From: Shimia sp. CNT1-13L.2 | Lineage (GTDB): Bacteria; Pseudomonadota; Alphaproteobacteria; Rhodobacterales; Rhodobacteraceae | Assembly (NCBI RefSeq): GCF_024331145.1 | Contig: NZ_JANDJO010000006.1 | Span: forward strand, 1 to 64,000 | Direction of reading: 5' to 3' | Length of the DNA: 64,000 nucleotides | In this document: positions 1,611-12,032 of the stretch, in pieces | Numbering within the stretch: position 1 is the first letter of the stretch | How the letters are laid out: each line of letters begins with the position of its first letter | Notes under the pieces: model-generated | Seen by the model: only the letters and a program-made list of their open reading frames with translations | The model's database searches: none | What the model was told of the DNA's origin: nothing | Program-made: the position numbers and the translations under genes

Positions 1611-1647
1611 TTGCAAAATGAATTATGAATCAGTATTCATGTTTCAT
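1611..1647 (+). promoter_or_regulatory. TetR-gene promoter with operator O1
   Basis: A sigma70-type promoter, TTGCAA (1611-1616), 17 bp, TATTCA (1634-1639), overlaps an inverted repeat ATGAAT-N4-ATTCAT at 1625-1640 that continues as ATTCATGTTTCAT to 1647. The same 23-nt pattern recurs in front of the substrate-binding protein gene (10910-10932), also in the sense direction. The operator fills the space between -35 and -10, a repression geometry. The predicted transcription start falls at about 1646, the ATG itself, so the TetR mRNA may be leaderless. Confidence 0.7.
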
Positions 1648-2233
1648 GACTATTCAAGCCCCCAAGACCAAACGCGGCACCGCGCGCCGTGAAATCCTGC
1701 TCCGTTCCGCCGAGAAAGTCATCGGCGAAAAGGGCTATGCCGCTGCATCCATCGCCGACATCACCCGCGATTCCAGCACCGCCCAAGGCACATTCTATCT
1801 CTATTTCGCCTCCAAGGCCGAAGTTTTCCGCGAACTTGTTCTGGAAATGGGCGCGCTCATCCGGAAAGTGATGAGCGAGGCCATCGCAAGCGCCCCCAAC
1901 CGTCTCGAGGCCGAACGCCTCGGGCTGCGCGCCTTTCTCGGCTTTGTATCCGAACGCCCCCACCTCTATCGCATCGTTGAAGAGGCCCGTTTTGTCGATC
2001 CCGAGGCCTATCGCGATTACTTCTCGCTGTTCGAACAGGGCTACCGCGACCAGCTTGAAAAAGCCGCCGCGTCCGGCGAGATCAGCCCCGGCAACGCCGA
2101 AGTCCGCGCTTGGGTTCTTATGGGCATCGCCAAGAACCTTGGCGACCGCTACGTCCTGCTTGACCAGAGCGCCGATCTTGACGCCGTCACAGACGAAGCC
2201 TTTGACATGATCAAGAACGGATTGGCCCCGTGA
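1646..2233 (+). CDS. TetR-family transcriptional regulator of the catabolic island
   Basis: This 195-residue protein has a TetR helix-turn-helix in residues about 20-65: ILLRSAEKVIGEKGYAAASIADI, then STAQGTFYLYFASKAEVFREL. A ligand-binding helical domain follows. An ATG also exists at 1625, but it lies inside the inverted repeat and upstream of the predicted transcription start, so 1646 is preferred. Neither start has a Shine-Dalgarno sequence. The gene leads the acyl-CoA catabolic genes and its stop overlaps the next start (GTGA). An identical operator in front of the transporter genes at 10.9 kb indicates that it represses both arms, probably released by an acyl-CoA or its acid; that ligand is an inference. 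Confidence 0.88.
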   Translation: MTIQAPKTKRGTARREILLRSAEKVIGEKGYAAASIADITRDSSTAQGTFYLYFASKAEVFRELVLEMGALIRKVMSEAIASAPNRLEAERLGLRAFLGFVSERPHLYRIVEEARFVDPEAYRDYFSLFEQGYRDQLEKAAASGEISPGNAEVRAWVLMGIAKNLGDRYVLLDQSADLDAVTDEAFDMIKNGLAP

Positions 2234-2997
2234 CCCAAGGAAGCGATCTCCTGTCCCTGACCGAGCACCGCGACGGTATCTGGCACATGAAGCTCTCGGC
2301 ACCCCGCGCCAATGCACTTGAGCCGGTGTTTCTGGATACCATCCGTGCGGCATTGGACCAGATCGAAACCACCGCGCCAAGCGCCCTTGTCATGACGGCC
2401 GGGCGCAACTTCTGTTCTGGCGGTGACGTGGCGCGCTTCTTCGAAGCGGTCAAGGCCGGCCAAGGCAAGGCCTATGCCCAAAGCGTCGTGCCCGTGCTGC
2501 AAGAGATCGTCCTGCGTCTCACCGCCCTGCCCGCCCCCGTCGTCATCGCCGCGCGTGGTGCCAACACGGGCGGCGGATGCGGGTTTCTCTTTGCCTCCGA
2601 TCTGGCCGTCATCCACCCGACAAGCTTTGTGCAGCCCTACTACGCCCGCGTCGGATTTGCCCCTGACGGAGGCTGGACAGCCCTTCTGCCAGAACGGATC
2701 GGTGCCGGACCTTCCTTGGCATGGCTTCAGGAAGACGCGCGCAAATCCTGCGCCGACCTGCGCGCCCTTGGCCTCGCGAGCCACGTCTCCGACACCCCCG
2801 AGGCAAAGGCGTTTTCGCTTCTGGACGACGTCAATCTGGCAACGCTCGCAACCGCTAAAACCCTCGTCTGGGATGCCGAGCGCCTTGCCCGTCTCGATCG
2901 CCGTCTCAAGGCCGAGACCGAAGCCTTTTACCAACGCATTGACCAGCCCGACACCCTTAAGGGCATGACCGCATTCCTGTCGCCACAAGAGGCCTGA
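2230..2997 (+). CDS. Enoyl-CoA hydratase/isomerase family protein, atypical active site
   Basis: This 255-residue crotonase-fold protein starts with GTG overlapping the TetR stop. Oxyanion-hole segments are visible: AGRNFCSGGDVARF near 57 and ANTGGGCGFLFASDLAV near 110. Both catalytic glutamates of classical hydratase are absent. GGGCE is GGGCG, and the PE of the second motif is replaced in VQPYYARVGFAPDGGW. The Asp in APDGG matches the PaaG/enoyl-CoA-isomerase type. A delta3-delta2 or ring-type isomerase role is therefore more likely than plain hydration. The neighbouring MaoC proteins could supply the hydratase activity. Confidence 0.85.
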   Translation: MTQGSDLLSLTEHRDGIWHMKLSAPRANALEPVFLDTIRAALDQIETTAPSALVMTAGRNFCSGGDVARFFEAVKAGQGKAYAQSVVPVLQEIVLRLTALPAPVVIAARGANTGGGCGFLFASDLAVIHPTSFVQPYYARVGFAPDGGWTALLPERIGAGPSLAWLQEDARKSCADLRALGLASHVSDTPEAKAFSLLDDVNLATLATAKTLVWDAERLARLDRRLKAETEAFYQRIDQPDTLKGMTAFLSPQEA

Positions 2998-3002
2998 AAA
3001 AC

Positions 3003-4490
3003 ATGTTCGACATCGTCACCGACATGGCCGCCAAGCGCGCCGAGATCACGCCGGACCGTATCGCCTTCGTGGAACAGGCCACCGGCCGGAACTGGAGCTT
3101 TTCTGAGATCAACCGCGCCGCCAATGGCATGGCAGCAGGCCTGATGGACTTGGGCCTGAGCGAAGGTGACCGTGTCGCGATCCTCTGCCCCAATACGACA
3201 ACCTTCTTCATTGCGCTCTTTGCCTGCCAGAAATCCGGTCTGGTCCTGTGCCCGCTGAACTGGCGTCAACCCGCCCCCGAACTGATCGACACGCTGGCCC
3301 CGTTTCCGCCACGTGTCATCCTGCATGACACCACCTTCGCCGGACCGGCCTATGACGTGGCCGAGGCCTTCTCGATCCCTGCCGTCGCGTTTGAGGGGCA
3401 GGTCACCGAATGGATCGACGCCGGCACCGATGGCTCTGCAGGCGTCATCCCCGCCGACAGGCTCTGGTATCTGCTGTTCACCTCCGGCACCACGGGCCGC
3501 CCCAAGGCGGTGATCCAGACCGCCCGCATGAGCTGGGCCAATGCCGTCAACATCGGGCAGGCCATCGACCTCACCAGCCAGGACCGCGCAGTCAACTTCC
3601 TGCCCCTCTTCCACACCGCTGGCATCAACCTCTACACCCTGCCAGTGTTCCTCAATGGAGGTTGCTCCACGGTTCTGTCCAAGTTCGATGATGCCACCGT
3701 CCTGACCATGCTTCAGGCGGGCGACATCAGCCAGTTTTTCGGCGTCCCCGCCATCTATCAGGCCCTCAGCCTGTCACCCGACATTGATCGCGTCGACTGG
3801 ACTACCATCCGCTGCGGCTGTGGCGGTGCGCCTCTGCCCGAACCTCTGATCCGCTTTTTCGCCGACCGCGGCGCGCGCGTTCTGAACGGTTTCGGCATGA
3901 CGGAAACCGGCCCCACGGTGTTCCTGATGGACGAGGCAAACGCCGAGGCCAAGATCGGCTCGGTCGGGCGGCCGCAGATGCTCACCGAATGCCGCCTCGA
4001 CGGCGTGGCGGACGGCGAGACCGGCGAGGGCGAAATTCAGTTTCGCGGCCCCAACATCACCCCCGGCTACTACCAGAATGACGAGGCCACCAGGGGCGCG
4101 TTCACCAAGGACGGCTGGCTCAAGACCGGCGATGTCGGCCATCGCGACGCGGATGGCTTCTATTTCATCGTCGACCGCATCAAGGACATGTACATCTCGG
4201 GCGGCGAAAACGTCTATCCGGCCGAAGTCGAGCGCATCCTCGTGCAACACCCGGATGTCCTCGAGGCGGCCGTGATCGGTGTGCCCGACAGCAAGTGGGG
4301 CGAGGTTGGCGCGGCCTACCTGATGCCCCGCCCCGGCCACGCCATTGATGGCGAGGCCTTGCGCCTGTGGTGCCGCGAACGCCTCGCCGCCTACAAGGTT
4401 CCGGCGCACGTCGCACAGGTTGACGATTTCCCCCGCACAGCCGCCGGCAAAATCCGCAAACCCGATCTTCGCAAGGAATTCTCAGCATGA
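3003..4490 (+). CDS. AMP-dependent acyl-CoA synthetase (ligase)
   Basis: This 495-residue ANL-superfamily enzyme has the P-loop motif YLLFTSGTTGRPKAV near 157, the GFGMTETGP adenine motif near 297, WLKTGDVG near 375, the hinge RIKDMYISGGENVYPAEVE near 395 and the C-terminal catalytic lysine in AAGKIRKPDL. It activates a carboxylic acid to its CoA thioester with ATP in the cytoplasm. The order of enoyl-CoA isomerase, ligase and two MaoC proteins marks a beta-oxidation-like module fed by the Liv-type importer. The substrate (short, branched, cyclic or aromatic acid) cannot be read from the sequence. Confidence 0.92.
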   Translation: MFDIVTDMAAKRAEITPDRIAFVEQATGRNWSFSEINRAANGMAAGLMDLGLSEGDRVAILCPNTTTFFIALFACQKSGLVLCPLNWRQPAPELIDTLAPFPPRVILHDTTFAGPAYDVAEAFSIPAVAFEGQVTEWIDAGTDGSAGVIPADRLWYLLFTSGTTGRPKAVIQTARMSWANAVNIGQAIDLTSQDRAVNFLPLFHTAGINLYTLPVFLNGGCSTVLSKFDDATVLTMLQAGDISQFFGVPAIYQALSLSPDIDRVDWTTIRCGCGGAPLPEPLIRFFADRGARVLNGFGMTETGPTVFLMDEANAEAKIGSVGRPQMLTECRLDGVADGETGEGEIQFRGPNITPGYYQNDEATRGAFTKDGWLKTGDVGHRDADGFYFIVDRIKDMYISGGENVYPAEVERILVQHPDVLEAAVIGVPDSKWGEVGAAYLMPRPGHAIDGEALRLWCRERLAAYKVPAHVAQVDDFPRTAAGKIRKPDLRKEFSA

Positions 4491-4840
4491 CCGAGCTTAG
4501 CGCCCTCTGGCGCCCTACTCAGGATGATTTCAACCTCTTCGCCGAAGTCTCCGGCGACGACAATCCGATCCACGTCGACGAAGAGTTTTCGCGCAACTCG
4601 GCCTTCGGGCGCACGGTCAGCCACGGCATGCTGATCTATTCGAAACTCTGGGGCATGGTCTGCGCCCATCATCCCGGCGCGCGGTCGGTGGAACAGAAGA
4701 TGATGTTCCCGAACCCCACCTACACCGGTGAAGACATCCGCCTCATGGTCACCGGCGCCATTCCCGGCCACATCGAGATGCGCGCGGTTCGGGTTGCCGA
4801 TGGCGCAGAGGTCTTTCTTGGCGAAGCGGAGGTCGCATAA
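4487..4840 (+). CDS. MaoC-like (R)-specific enoyl-CoA hydratase, catalytic subunit
   Basis: This 117-residue hot-dog protein carries the hydratase-2 motif FAEVSGDDNPIHVD near residue 18, with the catalytic Asp and His in place, followed by FGRTVSHGMLI. It would add water to a trans-2-enoyl-CoA. Its ATG overlaps the ligase stop (ATGA) and its stop overlaps the next start (TAATG), so the three genes are translationally coupled. Its short length suggests that it works as a dimer, possibly with the next gene product. Confidence 0.88.
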   Translation: MTELSALWRPTQDDFNLFAEVSGDDNPIHVDEEFSRNSAFGRTVSHGMLIYSKLWGMVCAHHPGARSVEQKMMFPNPTYTGEDIRLMVTGAIPGHIEMRAVRVADGAEVFLGEAEVA

Positions 4841-5199
4841 TGGAGGTTGGACAAAAGGCGGAACTGACCCGCACCTTCACCCCCGAGGACATCGCGGGAT
4901 ATGACGCGCTCGCGTCGGGCCGCACAGAGGGCCAGGTGCCCGAACCCCTGATCGCGGCGCTGTTTTCCTATCTCCTAGGCGTCAAACTGCCCGGCCCCGG
5001 AACCAACTACCTGAAACAAGAGATCGCCTTCCCCGAAAAGGCCCCGCTGGACATGGCTCTGACCGCTTCGGTCGAAGTCACCCGCCTGCGGCCCGAAAAA
5101 CAGATCGTGGATCTCTGGGCCAAGGCCACCCTGCCCGACGGCACCGTTGTCGCCGAAGGCCGGTCGCTGGTGAAATACGCCGACACCGGCCACGTGTAA
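4840..5199 (+). CDS. MaoC/hot-dog family protein lacking the catalytic dyad
   Basis: This 119-residue protein has hot-dog features: a GQKAELTRTFTPEDIAGYDAL start as in MaoC domains, then EPLIAALFSYLLGVKLPGPGTNYLKQEIAF. The Asp-x4-His hydratase dyad seen in the upstream protein is absent. Overlapping genes for one complete and one degenerate hot-dog protein fit a heteromeric hydratase in which this subunit shapes the acyl pocket. This is inferred from layout; a non-catalytic thioesterase-like fold is the alternative. Confidence 0.8.
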   Translation: MEVGQKAELTRTFTPEDIAGYDALASGRTEGQVPEPLIAALFSYLLGVKLPGPGTNYLKQEIAFPEKAPLDMALTASVEVTRLRPEKQIVDLWAKATLPDGTVVAEGRSLVKYADTGHV

Positions 5200-5215
5200 T
5201 CACGTCACAAGACTA

Positions 5216-5264
5216 AAACACCAAGGGCTGTGTCCGCTGAAAGCAGGCACAGCCCTTGGTGTTT
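5216..5264. terminator. Bidirectional hairpin between the two convergent arms
   Basis: A perfect 17-bp inverted repeat (5216-5232 with 5248-5264) with a 15-nt loop is flanked by A and T runs. It lies between the convergent MaoC and hydrolase genes and is the meeting point of the two arms of the island. Confidence 0.85.
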
Positions 5265-5293
5265 GGTAAGATCGAAAACCAGAGAGCGGGCGA

Positions 5294-6061
5294 TCAAAGA
5301 CCGTCTTCAAACGCCCGAAGCGCGGCCAGAAAGGCCTCCGGCTCCTCAAGGTTCGCCGAATGCCCCGACTGCGCAAATCCGACCGAACGCGCCCGCGGCG
5401 CGGTGTTCGCCATCCAGAGCGCCGTCGCCTCCGGGTAGACACGGCTCCTTTCGCCGTAGCCAACCAGCCAGGGCACATCGACCCTGGCAACCACATCCCA
5501 CAGATTCAGCGCCATCAGGTCATCCCAGTAGGCCGCCATGATCGCGGGATCATTCGACAGCACCTGCGAAAGGGCGGCGTCACGCGAAAAGGCGGGCGCG
5601 CCCTCGCGGGTTGCGAACATGGTCGTGGCGATCTTTTCCGCCGCACTGGCCCAGTCTTCGTGGATTTCGCGGGTCGAGGCCGCAAGGCGTTCCGGCGTAG
5701 AGCCAAGCAACCCCAGATCCCAATCCGAACCATTTGCCGGACGCGGGCTCATGTCGAGGGTCACGAGGCCAGACAGGCGCGCGGTCCCGTGATCGCGGAT
5801 ATAGGACCACGCCACCGCCGCCCCCATCGACCATCCCACCAAAAGAACGTCCTCACGCCCCGTGGCACGGATCAACGCATCGACCTGCGCAACACAGGCA
5901 TCAAGGCCGGTCGGATGGACCGTATTGTCGCCATGGCCGGGAAAATCCGGGGCCATGGCCCGTGGTCCAAGGGCGTCAACAAGCGGATCGAACACCGATC
6001 CCCGCATCGTCCACCCATGCAGGAACAGGACTGGCCGGTCGTTAGGTTTGGTCGTCATCAT
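5294..6061 (-). CDS. Alpha/beta-fold hydrolase
   Basis: This 255-residue protein has PVLFLHGWTMRGSVFDPL near residue 10 (HG oxyanion motif), the nucleophile elbow GWSMGA near 94 and a C-terminal SGHSANLEEPEAF with the catalytic His. Its ATG overlaps the permease stop, so it is the last gene of the Liv-type operon. It may release a free acid from an ester or lactone before CoA activation. Specificity is unknown. Confidence 0.87.
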   Translation of the reverse strand: MMTTKPNDRPVLFLHGWTMRGSVFDPLVDALGPRAMAPDFPGHGDNTVHPTGLDACVAQVDALIRATGREDVLLVGWSMGAAVAWSYIRDHGTARLSGLVTLDMSPRPANGSDWDLGLLGSTPERLAASTREIHEDWASAAEKIATTMFATREGAPAFSRDAALSQVLSNDPAIMAAYWDDLMALNLWDVVARVDVPWLVGYGERSRVYPEATALWMANTAPRARSVGFAQSGHSANLEEPEAFLAALRAFEDGL

Positions 6062-7110
6062 TTACCGGACCGCAAGCGCCCCACGATCCCCGTCGGGAAG
6101 AAATACACACTCAGGATGAACAGAACGCCCAGCCACAAAAGCCACCTATCGGGATCAAGCAGGCGCGACAACAGCGGGATCGCCTCGGTCGCCGCCGCCG
6201 CACTTCCCATCAGGTCCTGCAAATAGGTCTGAGCCAGAACCAGAAGCGTCGCCCCGATGGCCGCCCCCCAGATCGTGCCCATGCCGCCAATCACCACCAT
6301 CAAGAGGATATCCAGCATGATCGCAAAGCTCAGCGTCGTATCCGGCCCGACATAGCGCAGCCACAGGGCAAAAAGGCTCCCCGCCAGCGCCGCAATCGCC
6401 GCCGACAGACAGGTCGCAATCGTCCTGTAAGCCACCACCCGATAGCCAATCGCCTCGGCGCGGAAATCGTTTTCCCGGATCGCCTGCAACACACGGCCAA
6501 AGGACGAGTTCACCACCCGCAGCATCAGCAGGAACAGCATGAGCGAGCAGAAGAAGACCACATAGTAGTTCAGCAGCTTGCCATTGATCTTCACACCGGC
6601 AAATTCGCCCATCCGGTTGGCCGGACCAAGCGCGCGGGGGATCTTGAAGGTAAACCCGTCTTCGCCGCCCGTCAGCCAGGACAGCTGGCTGACCAGCACC
6701 GCCACGGCGGATGCCACCGCAAGGGTAATCATCGCGAAGAAAATCGCCCGTACACGCAGCGAAAACAGTGCGATCACAAAGGCCAGCGCCGCCGCAAGCA
6801 GGGCACCGGAGAGCGAGCCGACAATCAGCGCACCAAAGCCGCGCCCCATGTGCTGCGAGGCAAGGCCAACCCCATAGGCGCCAATGCCGAAGAACATGGT
6901 GTGGGCAAAGCTCACGACGCCGGTATAGCCCAGCAACAGGTCATAACTCGCCGCCAGCACGATGAAAATCGCGATGCGTGCGGCGGTATCAAGCGACCGG
7001 ACACCGGGGAACAGGAACGGCGCAAGCGCCAGCCCGAGGAAAATCGCGATCAACACCAGCGTCAGGGTCTTGGAACGCGGCGCATCGCCGGAAATCAGGG
7101 ACATGATCAT
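6058..7110 (-). CDS. livM: Liv-type ABC transporter permease (LivM family)
   Basis: This 350-residue membrane protein has about nine hydrophobic helices. The LivM signature is ASYDLLLGYTGVVSFAHTMFFGIGAYGVG near residue 54, followed by the cytoplasmic EAA-like loop FGRVLQAIRENDFRAEAIGY near 205. It pairs with the LivH-type permease encoded just upstream. A GAGG site overlaps the end of that gene. Imports the substrate bound by the periplasmic protein at 9.7-10.9 kb. The name reflects family, not proven leucine specificity. Confidence 0.92.
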   Translation of the reverse strand: MIMSLISGDAPRSKTLTLVLIAIFLGLALAPFLFPGVRSLDTAARIAIFIVLAASYDLLLGYTGVVSFAHTMFFGIGAYGVGLASQHMGRGFGALIVGSLSGALLAAALAFVIALFSLRVRAIFFAMITLAVASAVAVLVSQLSWLTGGEDGFTFKIPRALGPANRMGEFAGVKINGKLLNYYVVFFCSLMLFLLMLRVVNSSFGRVLQAIRENDFRAEAIGYRVVAYRTIATCLSAAIAALAGSLFALWLRYVGPDTTLSFAIMLDILLMVVIGGMGTIWGAAIGATLLVLAQTYLQDLMGSAAAATEAIPLLSRLLDPDRWLLWLGVLFILSVYFFPTGIVGRLRSGK

Positions 7111-7120
7111 CTCTTGGTCC

Positions 7121-8155
7121 TCACTTCGCCTTGACCACGGGCATCATGCCCTGGGGTCGCCACAACAGGATCACGGTCATCAGGCCGATGTTGGAAATCA
7201 GCGCGAGCTTGGGTTCGAGGAAGGCGATATAGTTCTGCATCAAGCCCACCAGAAGCGCGCCGATAAAGGCCCCTTCCACCGATCCAAGGCCGCCGATGAT
7301 CACCACGATGAAGACAAGGATCATCATCTCCTCGCCCATTCCGGCGGTGATCACCTCTTCGTATAGGCCCCACATCACACCGCCCAGACCGGCCAGCGCC
7401 GATCCCGCGATGAACACGCCGACAAAGACAACCCGCAGCCGATAACCAAGCGCCTCGACCATCTCGCCGTTCTCGACACCGGCCCGCACAATCAGGCCGA
7501 TCTTGGTGCGGCGAAACACAAGGCGCATCGCCACGAACAGAACCAACCCGACAGCCACGGCCAACAGACGGTATTTCTCAAGCGCCGCGCCCCAGAAGGT
7601 CACCGCCCCCTTGAACATCTCCGGGCGCGTCAGGAAAATCTCTTCCGGCCCCCAGATCACGTGGATCATCTGCTCGATCACGATCAGGCCGCCCACGGTG
7701 ACAAGAATCTGTTTGAGGTGAGCGCCGTAAACCGGCTTTACGATCACCTTCTCGAAGGCCCACCCAAGCAGGCCTGTGACCGCCATCGCGGCCAGAACCG
7801 CCAGCAAAATCGCCGTCAGGTTCAGAACAAGCGAGGGTGCCGCCGCCCATTGCCCAAAGGCGAACAACACGCTGACCCCGACAAAGGCGCCAACCGAAAT
7901 AAAGGCACCGTGGCCAAAGTTGATCACGTCCATCAGGCCAAAGACCAGCGTCAGGCCGGATGCGATGATGAAGATCATCATCCCCATCGCCAGCCCCGAA
8001 ACGGTCAGCGTCAGCCAGCTGGACGGGTTGCCAATCGCCACAAAGCCGAACACCACAAGGATCGGGATCAGCAGGAACGGCATCGCCTGCGCGATCCGCG
8101 CGGAAAGCGGAACATCCGCAAAAGTAGGTTTATGATCGGGGGCTGCTGTCATCAT
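7121..8155 (-). CDS. livH: Liv-type ABC transporter permease (LivH family)
   Basis: This 344-residue protein has multiple hydrophobic helices and the LivH motif GLTLVFGLMDVINFGHGAFISVGAF near residue 68. The loop LVFRRTKIGLIVRAGVENGEMVEALGY near 205 contacts the ATPases. The C-terminus has GALLVGLMQNYIAFLEP. Its ATG overlaps the stop of the LivF-type ATPase (ATGA). Unusually the permeases follow the ATPases in this operon (SBP-livG-livF-livH-livM-hydrolase). Confidence 0.92.
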   Translation of the reverse strand: MMTAAPDHKPTFADVPLSARIAQAMPFLLIPILVVFGFVAIGNPSSWLTLTVSGLAMGMMIFIIASGLTLVFGLMDVINFGHGAFISVGAFVGVSVLFAFGQWAAAPSLVLNLTAILLAVLAAMAVTGLLGWAFEKVIVKPVYGAHLKQILVTVGGLIVIEQMIHVIWGPEEIFLTRPEMFKGAVTFWGAALEKYRLLAVAVGLVLFVAMRLVFRRTKIGLIVRAGVENGEMVEALGYRLRVVFVGVFIAGSALAGLGGVMWGLYEEVITAGMGEEMMILVFIVVIIGGLGSVEGAFIGALLVGLMQNYIAFLEPKLALISNIGLMTVILLWRPQGMMPVVKAK

Positions 8156-8874
8156 CCCGCCTCCATGCTCAGGCCCATCAACTGCTCTTGCAGCTGGGCG
8201 CTTTCTGCCAGTTCACGCATCTCGCCAGTCCAGACAATCCGCCCGTCATCCATCACCGCGGCATAGTCGCCAATCGCCTTGGCAACGCCAAAGTTCTGCT
8301 CGACCATCAGGATCGACGCCCCCTGCGCCTTCAGCTCCTTCAGGGCCGAGGCCATCGTCGAAACAATCGCCGGCGCAAGGCCCTTGGTCGGCTCGTCGAT
8401 CAGGTACAGCGACCTGTCTTCGGCCATCGCACGGGCAATCGACAGCATCTGCTTCTGTCCCCCCGAAAGGTTGCCGGCTTCCGATGTCCAGAAGGTCTTG
8501 AGCGGCGGGAAAGCCGTGAAAATCCACTCGCACCGCTTTGCATCCAAAGGTCCGGTCGACGCCGCAAGCATCATGTTCTCTTCCACCGTCAGGTCGGTGA
8601 AAATGCCCATGTCTTCGGGCACAAACCCGATACCCGCCCGCGCCCGCGCCGGTGTGGCCGCCTGGGTGATATCCTCCCCGTCAAAGGTGATACGGCCCTG
8701 CTTGGCTACCCAAAGGCCCATGATGGTGCGCAATGTCGTGGTCTTGCCAACGCCGTTGCGACCCAACAACATGGTCACCGCACCACGCGGCACCGCAAGA
8801 TCAACGCCATGCAGGATGTGATACTGGGCAATGTCGGTATAGACGCCCTCAAGGGTCAGGATCGCATCAGACAT
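8152..8874 (-). CDS. livF: Liv-type ABC transporter ATP-binding protein (LivF family)
   Basis: This 240-residue ATPase has Walker A GRNGVGKTT near 40, the signature LSGGQKQ near 138 and Walker B LYLIDEPTKGLAP near 158. The frame is open further upstream, but MSDAILTLEGVY at 8874 matches the usual LivF start and overlaps the end of the LivG gene by 8 bp. It energises import together with the LivG-type ATPase. Confidence 0.93.
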   Translation of the reverse strand: MSDAILTLEGVYTDIAQYHILHGVDLAVPRGAVTMLLGRNGVGKTTTLRTIMGLWVAKQGRITFDGEDITQAATPARARAGIGFVPEDMGIFTDLTVEENMMLAASTGPLDAKRCEWIFTAFPPLKTFWTSEAGNLSGGQKQMLSIARAMAEDRSLYLIDEPTKGLAPAIVSTMASALKELKAQGASILMVEQNFGVAKAIGDYAAVMDDGRIVWTGEMRELAESAQLQEQLMGLSMEAG

Positions 8875-9631
8875 CTTCCAGCTCCTTGCCCATATAGGCG
8901 TTCTGGACAACATCCGACGCCATCACCTCACCCGGTTCCCCGTCCGCCACAAGCGCGCCGTTGTGCAACACGATGATCCGGTCCGCCAGCGCGCGGATCA
9001 CGTCCATCTTGTGTTCCACCAACAGGATCGTGCGATCCCGGTCCGCCTTCAGCTCGGCAATCAGATCAAGCACCACCGGCGCTTCGTCCACGCTCATGCC
9101 AGCGGTCGGCTCGTCAAACATGTAGACCTTGGGATCAATCGCGATCAGCATCGCGACCTCCAGCTTGCGCTGGTTGCCGTGGCTCAGCTCCGAGACAAGC
9201 TGATCCTTCAGCGTATCCAGCCGCACCCGCTCAAGCACCGACATCGCCTCGGTGGTCAGCGCCGTATGGCTGTCCGCCATCGTCAAGAGCGACATCCCGG
9301 CCCCGCGATGCGCCTGCACGGCCAGACGCACGTTCTCAAGAACGCTTAGGCCCGGAAACAGGTTGGTCAGCTGAAAGGCCCGTCCCAAACCGCGATGGCA
9401 CCGCTCCGAGACCGACAGGCGCGTAATATCCTCGCCCATCAGTTCGACACGGCCTTCGCTGGCCGGAATCTGGCCGGAGATCAGGTTGAAATAAGTGGTC
9501 TTGCCCGCACCGTTCGGCCCGACAATCGCGGTCAACTCACCGGCATGAAAGGCGCTGCTGACAGCATCCACTGCCACATGCCCACCAAACCGCACGGTGA
9601 GCCCGTGGGTTTCCAGAAGCGTCTGGGTCAT
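8867..9631 (-). CDS. livG: Liv-type ABC transporter ATP-binding protein (LivG family)
   Basis: This 254-residue ATPase has Walker A GPNGAGKTTYFNLISG near 39, a LivG-type insertion GLGRAFQLTNLFPGLSVLENV near 80, a signature region SELSHGNQRKLE near 148 and Walker B YMFDEPTAGMS near 170. LSHGNQ in place of LSGGQ is common in LivG proteins. It sits 64 bp after the substrate-binding protein gene, with a hairpin between them. Confidence 0.93.
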   Translation of the reverse strand: MTQTLLETHGLTVRFGGHVAVDAVSSAFHAGELTAIVGPNGAGKTTYFNLISGQIPASEGRVELMGEDITRLSVSERCHRGLGRAFQLTNLFPGLSVLENVRLAVQAHRGAGMSLLTMADSHTALTTEAMSVLERVRLDTLKDQLVSELSHGNQRKLEVAMLIAIDPKVYMFDEPTAGMSVDEAPVVLDLIAELKADRDRTILLVEHKMDVIRALADRIIVLHNGALVADGEPGEVMASDVVQNAYMGKELEDV

Positions 9632-9665
9632 GGTTTCGCTCTTGATTGGAAAATCGAAAGTGGCA

Positions 9666-9682
9666 GGGCGCGAAAGGCGCCC
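9666..9682 (-). other. Intercistronic hairpin after the substrate-binding protein gene
   Basis: GGGCGC-GAAAG-GCGCCC forms a perfect 6-bp stem in the gap between the substrate-binding protein gene and livG. There is no T run. Such hairpins in ABC operons often protect the 3' end of the binding-protein mRNA or partly attenuate readthrough, giving more binding protein than membrane components. The role here is inferred. Confidence 0.5.
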
Positions 9683-9695
9683 CGCCCGTGGTGTG

Positions 9696-10877
9696 TTACT
9701 GGTTGCGGACCGGAATGTTCATCTCGTCCATGCCCAGTTCACGTACCAGCACCGGTACGCCGTAATCCTTGCCGTCCTGCACTTCGGTACGGAAGTGATA
9801 CATCGACTGCATCGCCTGATGGTCTTCGGCGCGGAACTTCATGGTGCCCTTCGGGGTCTCCCACTCCATGCCTTCCATCGCACCGATCAGCGCGTCGGTA
9901 TCCTCGGCGCCACCGGCCTTCTTGATCGCCTCGACAACCGCGATACCGGCTGCCATGCCACCTGCGGTGAAGAAATCCGGCGGGCTGTCATAGCGCTTGA
10001 AGTGCTCTTCAACCAGCCAGTCGTTCACAGGATTGCTGGGGATTTCATAGTAGTAATAGGTCGCGCCTTCGAGACCCGGCATTTCCTTGTAGGCCTTCAG
10101 CGCCGCGAGGATGTTGCCACCGGTTGCAATCTCGATGCCGAAACGCGAGGGATCCATCGCGTTGATCTTGCTCATCGGGTTGCCGCCACCGGCCCAGATC
10201 AGGAACAGCTTCTTCTCGCCGCTTTCCCCTTCCATCGCGGTAAAGATACGCTCTGCCGCCGCGGTAAAGTCCGTGGTGTCGGTCGGCACGTATTCCTCGT
10301 GGGCGATCTTGGCACCGGTGGCCTCAAGCGCCTCCTTGAAGGCGGCCACGCCGTCACGGCCAAAGGCATAGTCCTGCGCGAGCGTCGCGATGGTCACCCC
10401 TTCGCCGCCAAGCGCCACCGCGTTGGCAATCGCATCCTGCGACGAGTTGCGGCCGGTGCGGAAAATGTAGCGGTTCCACGCCTTGCCGGTGATCGAGTCC
10501 GCCACCGCGGGCTCAACGATCAGCACGCGCTCGTATTCTTCGGCCACCGGCAGCATCGCCAGCGCCACGCCCGAGCTGACCGGACCGACCGCGATATGCG
10601 CGTCGTCGTCACCATAGGCTTCCGCCAGCAGGCTGCGGCCCTTGGCCGGATCAAGCTGGGTGTCCTTTTCGATCACTACCAGCGGCTCACCATTGATTTC
10701 CATGGTCCCGCCGGTTGCATATTCCAGACCCATCATCAGGCCATCATGAGATTGCTTGGCGTAGGCCTCGAACGGGCCGGTTTTGCCATAGACATGAGCA
10801 ATACGAATTTCAGCCGAAGCCGCCGTGGCAAGCGCCAGCACGGCAGTGGCTACACCGAGTTTCAAAAAGCGTTTCAA
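9696..10877 (-). CDS. Periplasmic substrate-binding protein of the Liv-type ABC importer
   Basis: This 393-residue protein starts with TTG at 10877. A strong GGGAGGAG site lies six bases upstream, and the protein then opens with a signal peptide, KRFLKLGVATAVLALATAASA. The ATG reached by extending the frame upstream would lie in the operator. The mature part has type-I periplasmic binding features: IRIAHVYGKTGPFEAYAKQ, then DPAKGRSLLAEAYGDDD near 85, VGPVSSGVALAML near 105 and TLAQDYAFGRDGVAAF near 175. It captures the substrate in the periplasm. Family members bind branched amino acids, amides, or aromatic acids; the acyl-CoA genes nearby favour a carboxylic acid. Confidence 0.9.
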   Translation of the reverse strand: MKRFLKLGVATAVLALATAASAEIRIAHVYGKTGPFEAYAKQSHDGLMMGLEYATGGTMEINGEPLVVIEKDTQLDPAKGRSLLAEAYGDDDAHIAVGPVSSGVALAMLPVAEEYERVLIVEPAVADSITGKAWNRYIFRTGRNSSQDAIANAVALGGEGVTIATLAQDYAFGRDGVAAFKEALEATGAKIAHEEYVPTDTTDFTAAAERIFTAMEGESGEKKLFLIWAGGGNPMSKINAMDPSRFGIEIATGGNILAALKAYKEMPGLEGATYYYYEIPSNPVNDWLVEEHFKRYDSPPDFFTAGGMAAGIAVVEAIKKAGGAEDTDALIGAMEGMEWETPKGTMKFRAEDHQAMQSMYHFRTEVQDGKDYGVPVLVRELGMDEMNIPVRNQ

Positions 10878-10909
10878 GAAAGACTCCTCCCATCCTTGTC
10901 GCACCAAAA

Positions 10910-10937
10910 ATGAAACATGAATCACCATTCATGTCAA
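10910..10937 (-). promoter_or_regulatory. Transporter promoter with operator O2
   Basis: A perfect inverted repeat ACATGAAT-N4-ATTCATGT lies at 10915-10934. Read in the gene direction it gives ATGAAT-N4-ATTCATGTTTCAT, identical outside the four spacer bases to operator O1 in front of the TetR gene. TTGACA (10937-10932) is a good -35 box, overlapped by the operator. The predicted transcript would start about 25 nt before the TTG start codon. Confidence 0.72.
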
Positions 10938-11124
10938 CGAAAGGATATTCGAATTCACAAACTCCTTTGAAATCAAAAGGAAGGCTGCATCAACGCCCAC
11001 GCCGCCTGCATGAACCTTCGCAAACTTCAGGGAGGAGGAGTCAGTAAATTCAGAAGCGAAAACCCTGCGCCCCTGTCACAGTCACACCGACGTGCAGGTC
11101 CGTGGGATCACCAAAGGTCAGTCT

Positions 11125-11709
11125 TCACCAGACAATAACGTTTTTGTCGTAAACAAAGACTTTGATGTCTCCCGAAGCCGTTCGAAGGATACCTTCGAAC
11201 GTGTTCAATGCCATCCGAATTCTACAAAGATATATTACATTCTCCGGTCGAGAACCTGACTTCTTTGCGTATTTTTCGGCAAGCACCCTGTTGGTCTCGA
11301 GTTCATCAACGCAATCGTCCCACTCAGCAAATAACAAACGTTCGATTTCCATCGATACCGAATCCTGATGTAGATCCATCAACATCCCATCCGGTTCGAG
11401 CAACGCCTCAATTGGCCTTTTGGACACGATCAGGGCACCACATGAATCGTCTCTATGCGCAACAAACAAAGCGCGATCATCCAGTGTATAGACCTCAAGA
11501 TCACTGCTTTTCACATCCGCCAAAAAGAAGGGGTAGTAGTCGATATGTTGTAGGTTTCGGCTACTCTCCGGACGGAAGTCCGCCAAGCAATGCTCGCGCA
11601 CGGTGACAAACCCAAGCTTGTTTGTGATCTCAAGTGCTGAAATTTTACATCCCGAGAGAACCCCGACCATGAGGACAAAAACTGCGACGTGCCTAAAGAT
11701 CCTCGTCAT
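11125..11709 (-). CDS. Hypothetical lipoprotein
   Basis: This 194-residue protein starts MTRIFRHVAVFVLMVGVLSGCKIS, a clear lipoprotein signal with the lipidated Cys at residue 21. The mature part contains several cysteines (EHC, DDSC, DDC, YLC) and no domain I recognise. Its base composition is noticeably more AT-rich than its neighbours. It stands alone between the transporter operon and tRNA-Ser with about 190 and 160 bp of non-coding sequence on each side, which is compatible with recent acquisition. Function unknown. Confidence 0.7.
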   Translation of the reverse strand: MTRIFRHVAVFVLMVGVLSGCKISALEITNKLGFVTVREHCLADFRPESSRNLQHIDYYPFFLADVKSSDLEVYTLDDRALFVAHRDDSCGALIVSKRPIEALLEPDGMLMDLHQDSVSMEIERLLFAEWDDCVDELETNRVLAEKYAKKSGSRPENVIYLCRIRMALNTFEGILRTASGDIKVFVYDKNVIVW

Positions 11710-11869
11710 ATTGGTCTCTCAATTTAGGGTGCAATAAAGTGAGTAAATCAGCGCAAAGCGTTCATGGCCCCAGAAGGGCGCGCCCCTATACCTGACGTCT
11801 ATTGACGCCAGAGTGTCAACTGCGGTTTTTGGCGCACATCTCACAGGACAAACAGAAAAAGAAGGAAAA

Positions 11870-11959
11870 TGGCGGAGCGACAGGGATTCGAACCCTGGAG
11901 ACGGTTTCCCGCCTACACACTTTCCAGGCGTGCGCCTTCGACCACTCGGCCACCGCTCC
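11870..11959 (-). tRNA. tRNA-Ser (GGA)
   Basis: A 90-nt class II tRNA with a long variable arm, CCA encoded at its 3' end, and the T-loop GGTTCGAATCC. The acceptor arms GGAGCGG and TCGCTCC pair. The anticodon loop reads CTGGAAA, giving anticodon GGA. Confidence 0.95.
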
Positions 11960-12032
11960 GTGCGACGCTCTTTAGCGTTTCAGGGAAGGGATGCGCAAGA
12001 GGCAAAACCACCCTTCGCGCGTTTTGTCGAAA

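Follow-up and report, generated by a model that had tools for sequence, protein, structure and literature searches.

The stretch analyzed here, hereafter the window, comprises 64,000 nucleotides (nt) of Shimia sp. CNT1-13L.2 and starts at base 1 of its contig, NZ_JANDJO010000006.1 (G000:C16). Within the window, a 9-kb island of 11 genes and two operators was examined, in which two arms run toward each other. The rightward arm encodes a TetR-family regulator (the TetR protein), a crotonase-like protein, an acyl-coenzyme A (CoA) ligase, and two small MaoC-like proteins, and its genes overlap or sit 5 bases apart. The leftward arm encodes a binding protein, two ATPases, two permeases, and an alpha/beta hydrolase. 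Judging from sequence comparison, it is highly probable that the one TetR-family protein controls both arms, which would make the island a local regulon of two transcription units. The features of the island are as follows.

1621–1644: operator 1, palindrome AATTATGA-ATCAGTAT-TCATGTTT; 14 of 16 consensus positions, 1 base from the TetR start codon
1646–2233, forward: TetR-family regulator, 195 amino acids; PF00440, 2.3e-12, 46.9 bits against a cut-off of 24
2230–2997, forward: crotonase-superfamily protein with a GTG start, overlapping the TetR stop; PF00378, 5.8e-22; isomerase-like active site
3003–4490, forward: acyl-CoA ligase, 495 amino acids; PF00501, 4.3e-68; closest PDB entries 8weu/8wev, 4e-104
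4487–4840, forward: MaoC-like hydratase subunit 1; PF01575, 2.6e-18; catalytic-type D24/H29
4840–5199, forward: MaoC-like subunit 2, without the Asp/His pair; PRK08190, 1.3e-15; PDB 1iq6, 1.2e-12
5218–5262: hairpin where the converging arms meet, probably a terminator in both directions; z = -7.88
5294–6061, reverse: alpha/beta hydrolase; PF12697, 3.3e-22
6058–7110, reverse: Liv-type permease LivM; PF02653, 1.8e-34
7121–8155, reverse: Liv-type permease LivH; PF02653, 6e-31
8152–8874, reverse: ATPase LivF; PF00005, 6.5e-31
8867–9631, reverse: ATPase LivG; PF00005, 4.3e-30
9696–10880, reverse: periplasmic binding protein; phmmer, 541 bits to PDB 3n0x/3nnd, near full length
10913–10936: operator 2, palindrome AAACATGA-ATCACCAT-TCATGTCA; 14 of 16 consensus positions; a TTGACA -35-like element overlaps it
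10932–10937, reverse: TTGACA, -35-like hexamer by sequence reading, at the edge of operator 2

According to a preliminary description of this DNA, one pattern stands at both ends of the island with only four spacer bases differing, and the arms meet at a 17-base-pair (bp) hairpin. Both claims were borne out. The pattern ATGAAT-N4-ATTCATGTTTCAT was matched exactly at 1625–1647 on the forward strand and at 10910–10932 on the reverse strand, the spacers CAGT and GGTG were the sole differences between the two 23-nt sites, and 100 dinucleotide shuffles of the window put the number expected by chance at 0.00. The hairpin consists of 17 pairs including one G-U (5218–5234 with 5246–5262), and its fold of -40.4 kcal/mol compares with a shuffle mean of -16.8 kcal/mol. 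When the own genome (4,135,578 bases) was scanned with up to three mismatches allowed, as the same description had suggested, the 23-nt pattern matched three times, namely at the two sites and at an opposite-strand overlap of site 1, and the reversed pattern, used as a control, did not match at all.

The direction of the pattern, described at first as sense at both ends, has little meaning because the 23-mer is a longer palindrome read off its centre of symmetry. The fuller element, recognised from the upstream regions of relatives, is the 24-bp palindrome AAACMTGA-N8-TCAKGTTT. With up to two mismatches to this consensus, the only third place in the own genome was C2:51996, at the 3' end of a methylmalonyl-CoA mutase-like coding region adjoining a convergent NhaA-like gene (both named by reading). 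A larger regulon in the same genome through this place was rejected, as the 3' end of a coding region is hardly a promoter.

The two sites do precede the TetR and binding-protein genes, as had been claimed, but the starts of both genes were revised. The TetR ATG is at 1646, the ATG at 1625 lying inside the operator, and the binding protein probably starts with the TTG at 10880, behind GGAGGAG, rather than with the ATG at 10928. In relatives whose arms also converge (14 convergent loci in all), an operator of the first type ended at most 7 bases before the approximate TetR start in 11 of 13 loci, and TTGACA or TTGACG was kept at the importer-arm operator in 11 of 13, the window being among the 13. 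As little room is left for a ribosome site between operator and TetR start, the TetR message is likely leaderless.

To place these sites among relatives, genomes were scanned with the TetR protein, which gave 534 relatives; the 80 best, from several phyla, were retained. Searches with the binding protein matched 24 of 385 genomes of the class and 56 of 341 genomes of the order. The gene context was examined in 18 of the 23 other class-search genomes plus two single places, at 36 of the 56 order-search places, in two more regions, and in 8 of the 10 distinct plasmid records matched. TetR matches below 40% identity and binding-protein matches of at most 60 bits (in the order-level set, at most 45% identity) were not counted. 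L209, whose TetR DNA is the same as that of L005 from Histidinibacterium aquaticum, a carrier of the island, and L001–L003, which are pieces of the window, were excluded from the operator and gene-order counts. L237, which has both genes, stood outside all counts; its best site, 13 of 16, lies about 90 bases before the binding-protein match. The gene maps of relatives were obtained from a codon-score caller, which can overlook genes or put them in the wrong place, and the majority of neighbours carry no family assignment.

The operator set consisted of 69 loci with TetR and binding protein, 42 of them in Alphaproteobacteria, 3 in Gammaproteobacteria, 23 in Actinomycetota, and 1 in Bacillota. 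The operator was scored out of 16 positions, and the stretch searched was the 300 bases preceding the start of TetR or of the binding protein. As the consensus had been drawn by eye from 24 loci, 22 of them within the 69, the remaining 47 were treated as held out.

A score of at least 13 was found in 68 of the 69 loci with TetR and transporter, against 2 of 35 transporter loci without TetR (1 of 12 and 1 of 23), and this strongly supported the earlier proposal that the TetR protein controls both arms jointly. At least 14 positions matched in 62 of the 69. Among dinucleotide shuffles, at least 13 was reached in 9 of 1380 and at least 14 in 1 of 1380; the reversed pattern reached 13 in none of the 69 loci, and 46 of the 47 held-out loci passed at the same threshold. 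One of the TetR-less loci with an operator, L226, belongs to a genome (G595) in which a TetR gene lies approximately 132 kb away on the same contig. There, the separated arms (L226 and L236) have operators of their own, 16 of 16 and 14 of 16, and the distant TetR gene sits with ligase and MaoC genes and the 14/16 site. At TetR-only loci, the operator was present in 8 of 35 and 2 of 3 in two sets, including four Deinococcota (L043, L046, L081, and L083). The TetR protein and AAACMTGA-N8-TCAKGTTT travel together, and almost all transcription units of the set have a copy of the palindrome at their start.

Gene order provided a natural experiment, as loci with split, flipped, or fused arms test whether operators follow promoters. 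The layouts of 70 loci, including the window and with one duplicate dropped, were compared. Convergent loci had an operator at both ends in 13 of 14 cases. Where the arms were co-directional, 35 of 36 loci had the operator in front of the first gene and nowhere else: with the transporter first, it preceded the transporter in 30 of 31 loci and TetR in none of the 31, and with TetR first, it preceded TetR in 5 of 5 and the transporter in 0 of 5. Divergent loci carried it at the transporter end in 20 of 20 and at the TetR end in 19 of 20, mostly in one shared region. As read from these layouts, operators vary in number with the transcription units. Since operators move with promoters as gene order changes, this was considered the strongest argument for one regulator over both arms.

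The gene identities given in the preliminary description agreed with Pfam and NCBIfam, except in the case of MaoC subunit 2, for which Pfam gave no match at an E-value of 0.001 and the identification came from NCBIfam PRK08190 and PDB 1iq6. The closest PDB entry to the TetR protein was 6el2 (2.6e-26, 96 bits over residues 2–180), and the protein stayed below the cut-off of all 14 NCBIfam families listed, FadR, BetI, AcuR, and ScbR among others (best score 46.9 against 150). The importer has the Liv-type set of a binding protein, two BPD_transp_2 permeases, and two ATPases, with LivH, LivF, and the binding protein below the cut-offs of the NCBIfam Liv and Urt models listed (for LivF, among the best 25 of 186 families).

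Enoyl-CoA hydratase, as in the rat enzyme, has a conserved pair of catalytic Glu residues. In the crotonase-like protein, no conserved Glu was found in residues 50–165 of 21 aligned sequences, and Asp146 of the PDGG motif was kept in 21 of 21. The label of PaaG-type isomerase given earlier thus holds as a type, but PaaG itself (TIGR02280) was matched with 65.6 bits against a cut-off of 345. The Asp/His pair of MaoC and PhaJ proteins is present only in MaoC subunit 1 (D24 and H29 in 20 of 20 aligned sequences), whose nearest PDB entry was 3ir3, followed by the (R)-specific hydratase 5cpg. Subunit 2, without such a pair, has a block of its own, vPEpL and LPG.GTNYLKQ, and is nearest to 1iq6, an (R)-specific enoyl-CoA hydratase. 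The statement that the gene combination fits no nameable pathway also stood, as no listed NCBIfam equivalog cut-off was reached by the ligase (best 25 of 106 families), the crotonase-like protein (best 25 of 63), the MaoC subunits, or the hydrolase.

A mechanism can be proposed on this basis. Without substrate, a TetR dimer would cover both the beginning of its own message at operator 1 and the importer's -35 element at operator 2, and both arms would stay low. On substrate entry, the importer and ligase would make a CoA ester, and this ester or the free acid would release TetR from the operators, so that uptake, activation with CoA, and the initial steps on the CoA ester would increase in concert. 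The hydrolase may free a carboxylic acid from an ester or oligomer, and the ligase would form the CoA thioester of this acid. The MaoC pair, with one catalytic and one degenerate subunit, would interconvert (R)-3-hydroxyacyl-CoA and trans-2-enoyl-CoA, the crotonase-like protein would shift the double bond, and housekeeping beta-oxidation would complete the degradation.

As for the substrate, the single likeliest class, put forward tentatively, is that of short (R)-3-hydroxy acids (3-hydroxybutyrate, for example) or their esters or oligomers. In most actinobacterial loci, the binding-protein and Liv genes come first, followed by the ligase, TetR, 3-hydroxybutyrate dehydrogenase, a hydrolase, the two CoA-transferase genes (A and B), and a second hydrolase. 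A 3-hydroxybutyrate dehydrogenase at least 45% identical to the L047 protein was found in 21 of the 23 actinobacterial loci, and both subunits of the CoA-transferase (SCOT), by similarity to the L047 proteins, in 16 of the 23. The dehydrogenase and SCOT subunits of L047 pass their family cut-offs, the L077 dehydrogenase does not, and the second hydrolase of L047 bears a weak likeness to polyhydroxyalkanoate depolymerase (99 bits against a cut-off of 300). On a plasmid of Mariluticola halotolerans (L168, 6370–14699), a sigma-54 regulator, a 3-hydroxybutyrate dehydrogenase that passes its family cut-off, a binding protein 73% identical to the window's, LivGFHM, and a hydrolase lie in one run.

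Several findings weigh against 3-hydroxybutyrate. By Pfam and NCBIfam, neither 3-hydroxybutyrate dehydrogenase nor CoA-transferase is among the island genes of the window, and a relative of the L047 dehydrogenase or SCOT at 45% identity is absent from all 42 alphaproteobacterial TetR loci. In Actinomycetota, the CoA ligase would be partly redundant with the dehydrogenase/SCOT route. Moreover, TetR-less binding proteins 76–79% identical to the window's adjoin homoprotocatechuate or homogentisate genes in relatives. With still less confidence, the operator might mark a regulon of Pseudomonadota, Actinomycetota, and Bacillota for the uptake and use of 3-hydroxybutyrate oligomers or esters from decaying polyhydroxybutyrate granules. 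A Liv-type importer and a cytoplasmic hydrolase would then be followed by dehydrogenase and CoA-transferase in Actinomycetota or by ligase and a two-subunit (R)-hydratase in Alphaproteobacteria, the routes being swapped under one regulator and operator. If true, this would constitute an uptake route for the breakdown products of a common storage polymer.

The same regulon could serve another aliphatic acid, whether branched, dicarboxylic, or unsaturated, with the crotonase-like protein acting as a delta3-delta2 isomerase before MaoC hydration; taken together, such acids are a plausible alternative, short of even chances. The isomerase-like active site is consistent with this, and according to PMC3223731, Liv-type binding proteins of Rhodopseudomonas palustris bind mostly aromatic, fatty, or dicarboxylic acids, not branched amino acids, which suits both this alternative and the aromatic one. 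However, Pfam and NCBIfam revealed no acyl-CoA dehydrogenase or thiolase in the island, and no examined locus singles out one such acid, the neighbours in relatives being mostly without family assignment.

An aromatic or arylalkanoic acid, whose side chain the ligase, MaoC pair, and crotonase-like protein would shorten or rearrange, with ring cleavage encoded elsewhere, is a possible but rather unlikely substrate of the regulon. In its favour, HpaE, HpaD, and HpaH lie within approximately 9 kb of the binding protein in L224, and HmgA and fumarylacetoacetase within approximately 9 kb in L220, of the same genus, all above NCBIfam cut-offs. L213 resembles the homoprotocatechuate neighbourhood of L224 by gene size and N-termini, and L135, also of the same genus, has its TetR-less importer near a pyridoxal phosphate-dependent decarboxylase; the importers of these four loci are 76–79% identical to the window's and have neither TetR nor operator. 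In L009, which has both, genes for an FAA-hydrolase family protein, a MarR protein, and a metallo-hydrolase lie within 4 kb downstream of ligase and hydrolase, after the TetR arm, and L011 and L012 have similarly sized genes in that place. In addition, the second PDB match of the ligase is named feruloyl-CoA synthetase. On the other side, no oxygenase or ring-cleavage gene was found in the island with Pfam and NCBIfam, and the Actinomycetota and Mariluticola loci carry 3-hydroxybutyrate dehydrogenase.

Two further explanations concern the regulation itself. As the binding of TetR to the operator is predicted by comparing sequences, the palindrome might be bound by another regulator, with the TetR link due to shared cluster ancestry only. 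This is very improbable, as the site is absent from 33 of the 35 TetR-less transporter clusters and persists across phyla, rearrangements, and the unlinked arms of G595. Chance similarity of two promoter regions, to which the overlap of both sites with promoter-like stretches might point, was rejected as practically without probability by the counts from the shuffles (0.00), the own genome (unique in 4.1 Mb), and the relatives (68 of 69).

Some observations nevertheless weigh against control by the TetR protein. L201 was the sole held-out miss, with 12 of 16, and L151 has a 14/16 site, yet only a 38% TetR relative elsewhere in its genome. The promoter scan gave no sigma-70 match at either operator of the window. 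In the own genome, 35 further consensus matches occurred at exactly three mismatches, and the reversed control gave 7 at up to three. Finally, 27 of the 88 TetR rows in the tree (window included) have no operator; of these, L064 is a short contig and L074 has a 15/16 site before another gene. Since 19 of the 27 form one Nevskiaceae-type clade (L023, L024, L025, L028, L029, L030, L033, L034, L039, L040, L042, L044, L045, L049, L051, L054, L060, L063, and L066), with neither operator nor binding-protein relative in the stretch examined around TetR, the putative operator is not a property of the whole TetR family.

Within the order, TetR was matched in 18 of 332 genomes (E-value 1e-45), all 18 also being among the transporter-bearing genomes. 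The term island was supported, as no TetR match was obtained at an E-value of 1e-30 in 24 other genomes of the same genus and the same gene set occurs on plasmids of Hoeflea (with an IS6 transposase nearby), Mameliella alba (conjugative), and Roseinatronobacter. The guanine-cytosine (GC) fraction of the island is 0.61–0.64, like its surroundings; therefore, composition is no marker of foreign origin.

The island is flanked by a malyl-CoA lyase gene on one side and by a tRNA-Ser gene (11870–11959) on the other. At the contig end, positions 1–1539 contain a cut serine hydroxymethyltransferase gene and the malyl-CoA lyase gene. This lyase is closest to that of G394, of the same genus (78% for DNA, 93% for protein), where serine hydroxymethyltransferase is in the same cluster, and a second copy with 68% DNA identity is at C1:440340; positions 1–1539 may be a sporadic serine-cycle cluster. 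On the other side, a 194-residue protein with a lipoprotein-like N-terminus is encoded at 11125–11709, between island and tRNA-Ser, and the stretch 10501–12000 is AT-richer (GC 0.52).

Two variations were observed around relatives. A KAS III-like protein follows TetR relatives, next to the ligase, in L027, L035, L046, L059, L077, and L083, from Deinococcota, Salinisphaera, a Peptococcaceae, and one Actinomycetota; those of L027, L059, and L077, the three scanned by NCBIfam, pass the PRK06840 cut-off. In L138, L139, L140, and L142, the same importer family stands beside a PAS/sigma-54 activator, a different control system for a similar transporter; a hydrolase with the motif HGLAR is also present in three of these loci.

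With joint control by the TetR protein, an orphan importer, ligase, and regulator become a testable unit in which one protein and one inducer would act through a 24-bp operator on two promoters, and the same pairing in several phyla suggests a widely shared nutrient-uptake switch. Liv-type importers are often named for branched amino acids, though many carry other compounds. The regulator–operator pair separates one importer subgroup from look-alikes in aromatic clusters. No publication on this regulon was found in the open-licence literature searched for gene combinations and operator letters, judged by titles and abstract starts.

Known systems offer partial likenesses. PDB 6el2/6en8, which we take to be Sulfolobus FadR, is the closest solved relative of the TetR protein, with a different gene set and source organism. 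PDB 3n0x/3nnd is presumably a binding protein of Rhodopseudomonas palustris (the name RPA4397 for 3N0X is unconfirmed), and no ligand report for it was found in the open-licence literature, judged by titles. The D/H motif of PhaJ-type 1iq6 and HadAB-type dehydratases is shared by MaoC subunit 1, and subunit 2 is most similar to 1iq6; unlike those systems, the window has two separate small subunits, the second without the D/H pair, and HadB is a weak match of subunit 1.

PsrA, FadP, and LiuQ are TetR regulators of acyl-CoA catabolism with palindromic operators. The present system resembles them as a TetR regulator of CoA-ester catabolism with palindromic operators, and an acyl-CoA ligand may be expected by analogy. 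Neither TetR regulators acting on acyl-CoA catabolism nor Liv-type importers paired with CoA ligases are new in kind; the operator–regulator pairing of this regulon is unusually wide. According to PMC5343134, FadP and LiuQ are unique to Betaproteobacteria, with means of 17.9 and 5.2 target genes per genome, respectively. By distribution and target number, the system described here differs, as it comprises two sites and 11 genes including an importer, and its operator also occurs in Actinomycetota, Bacillota, and, at TetR-only loci, Deinococcota.

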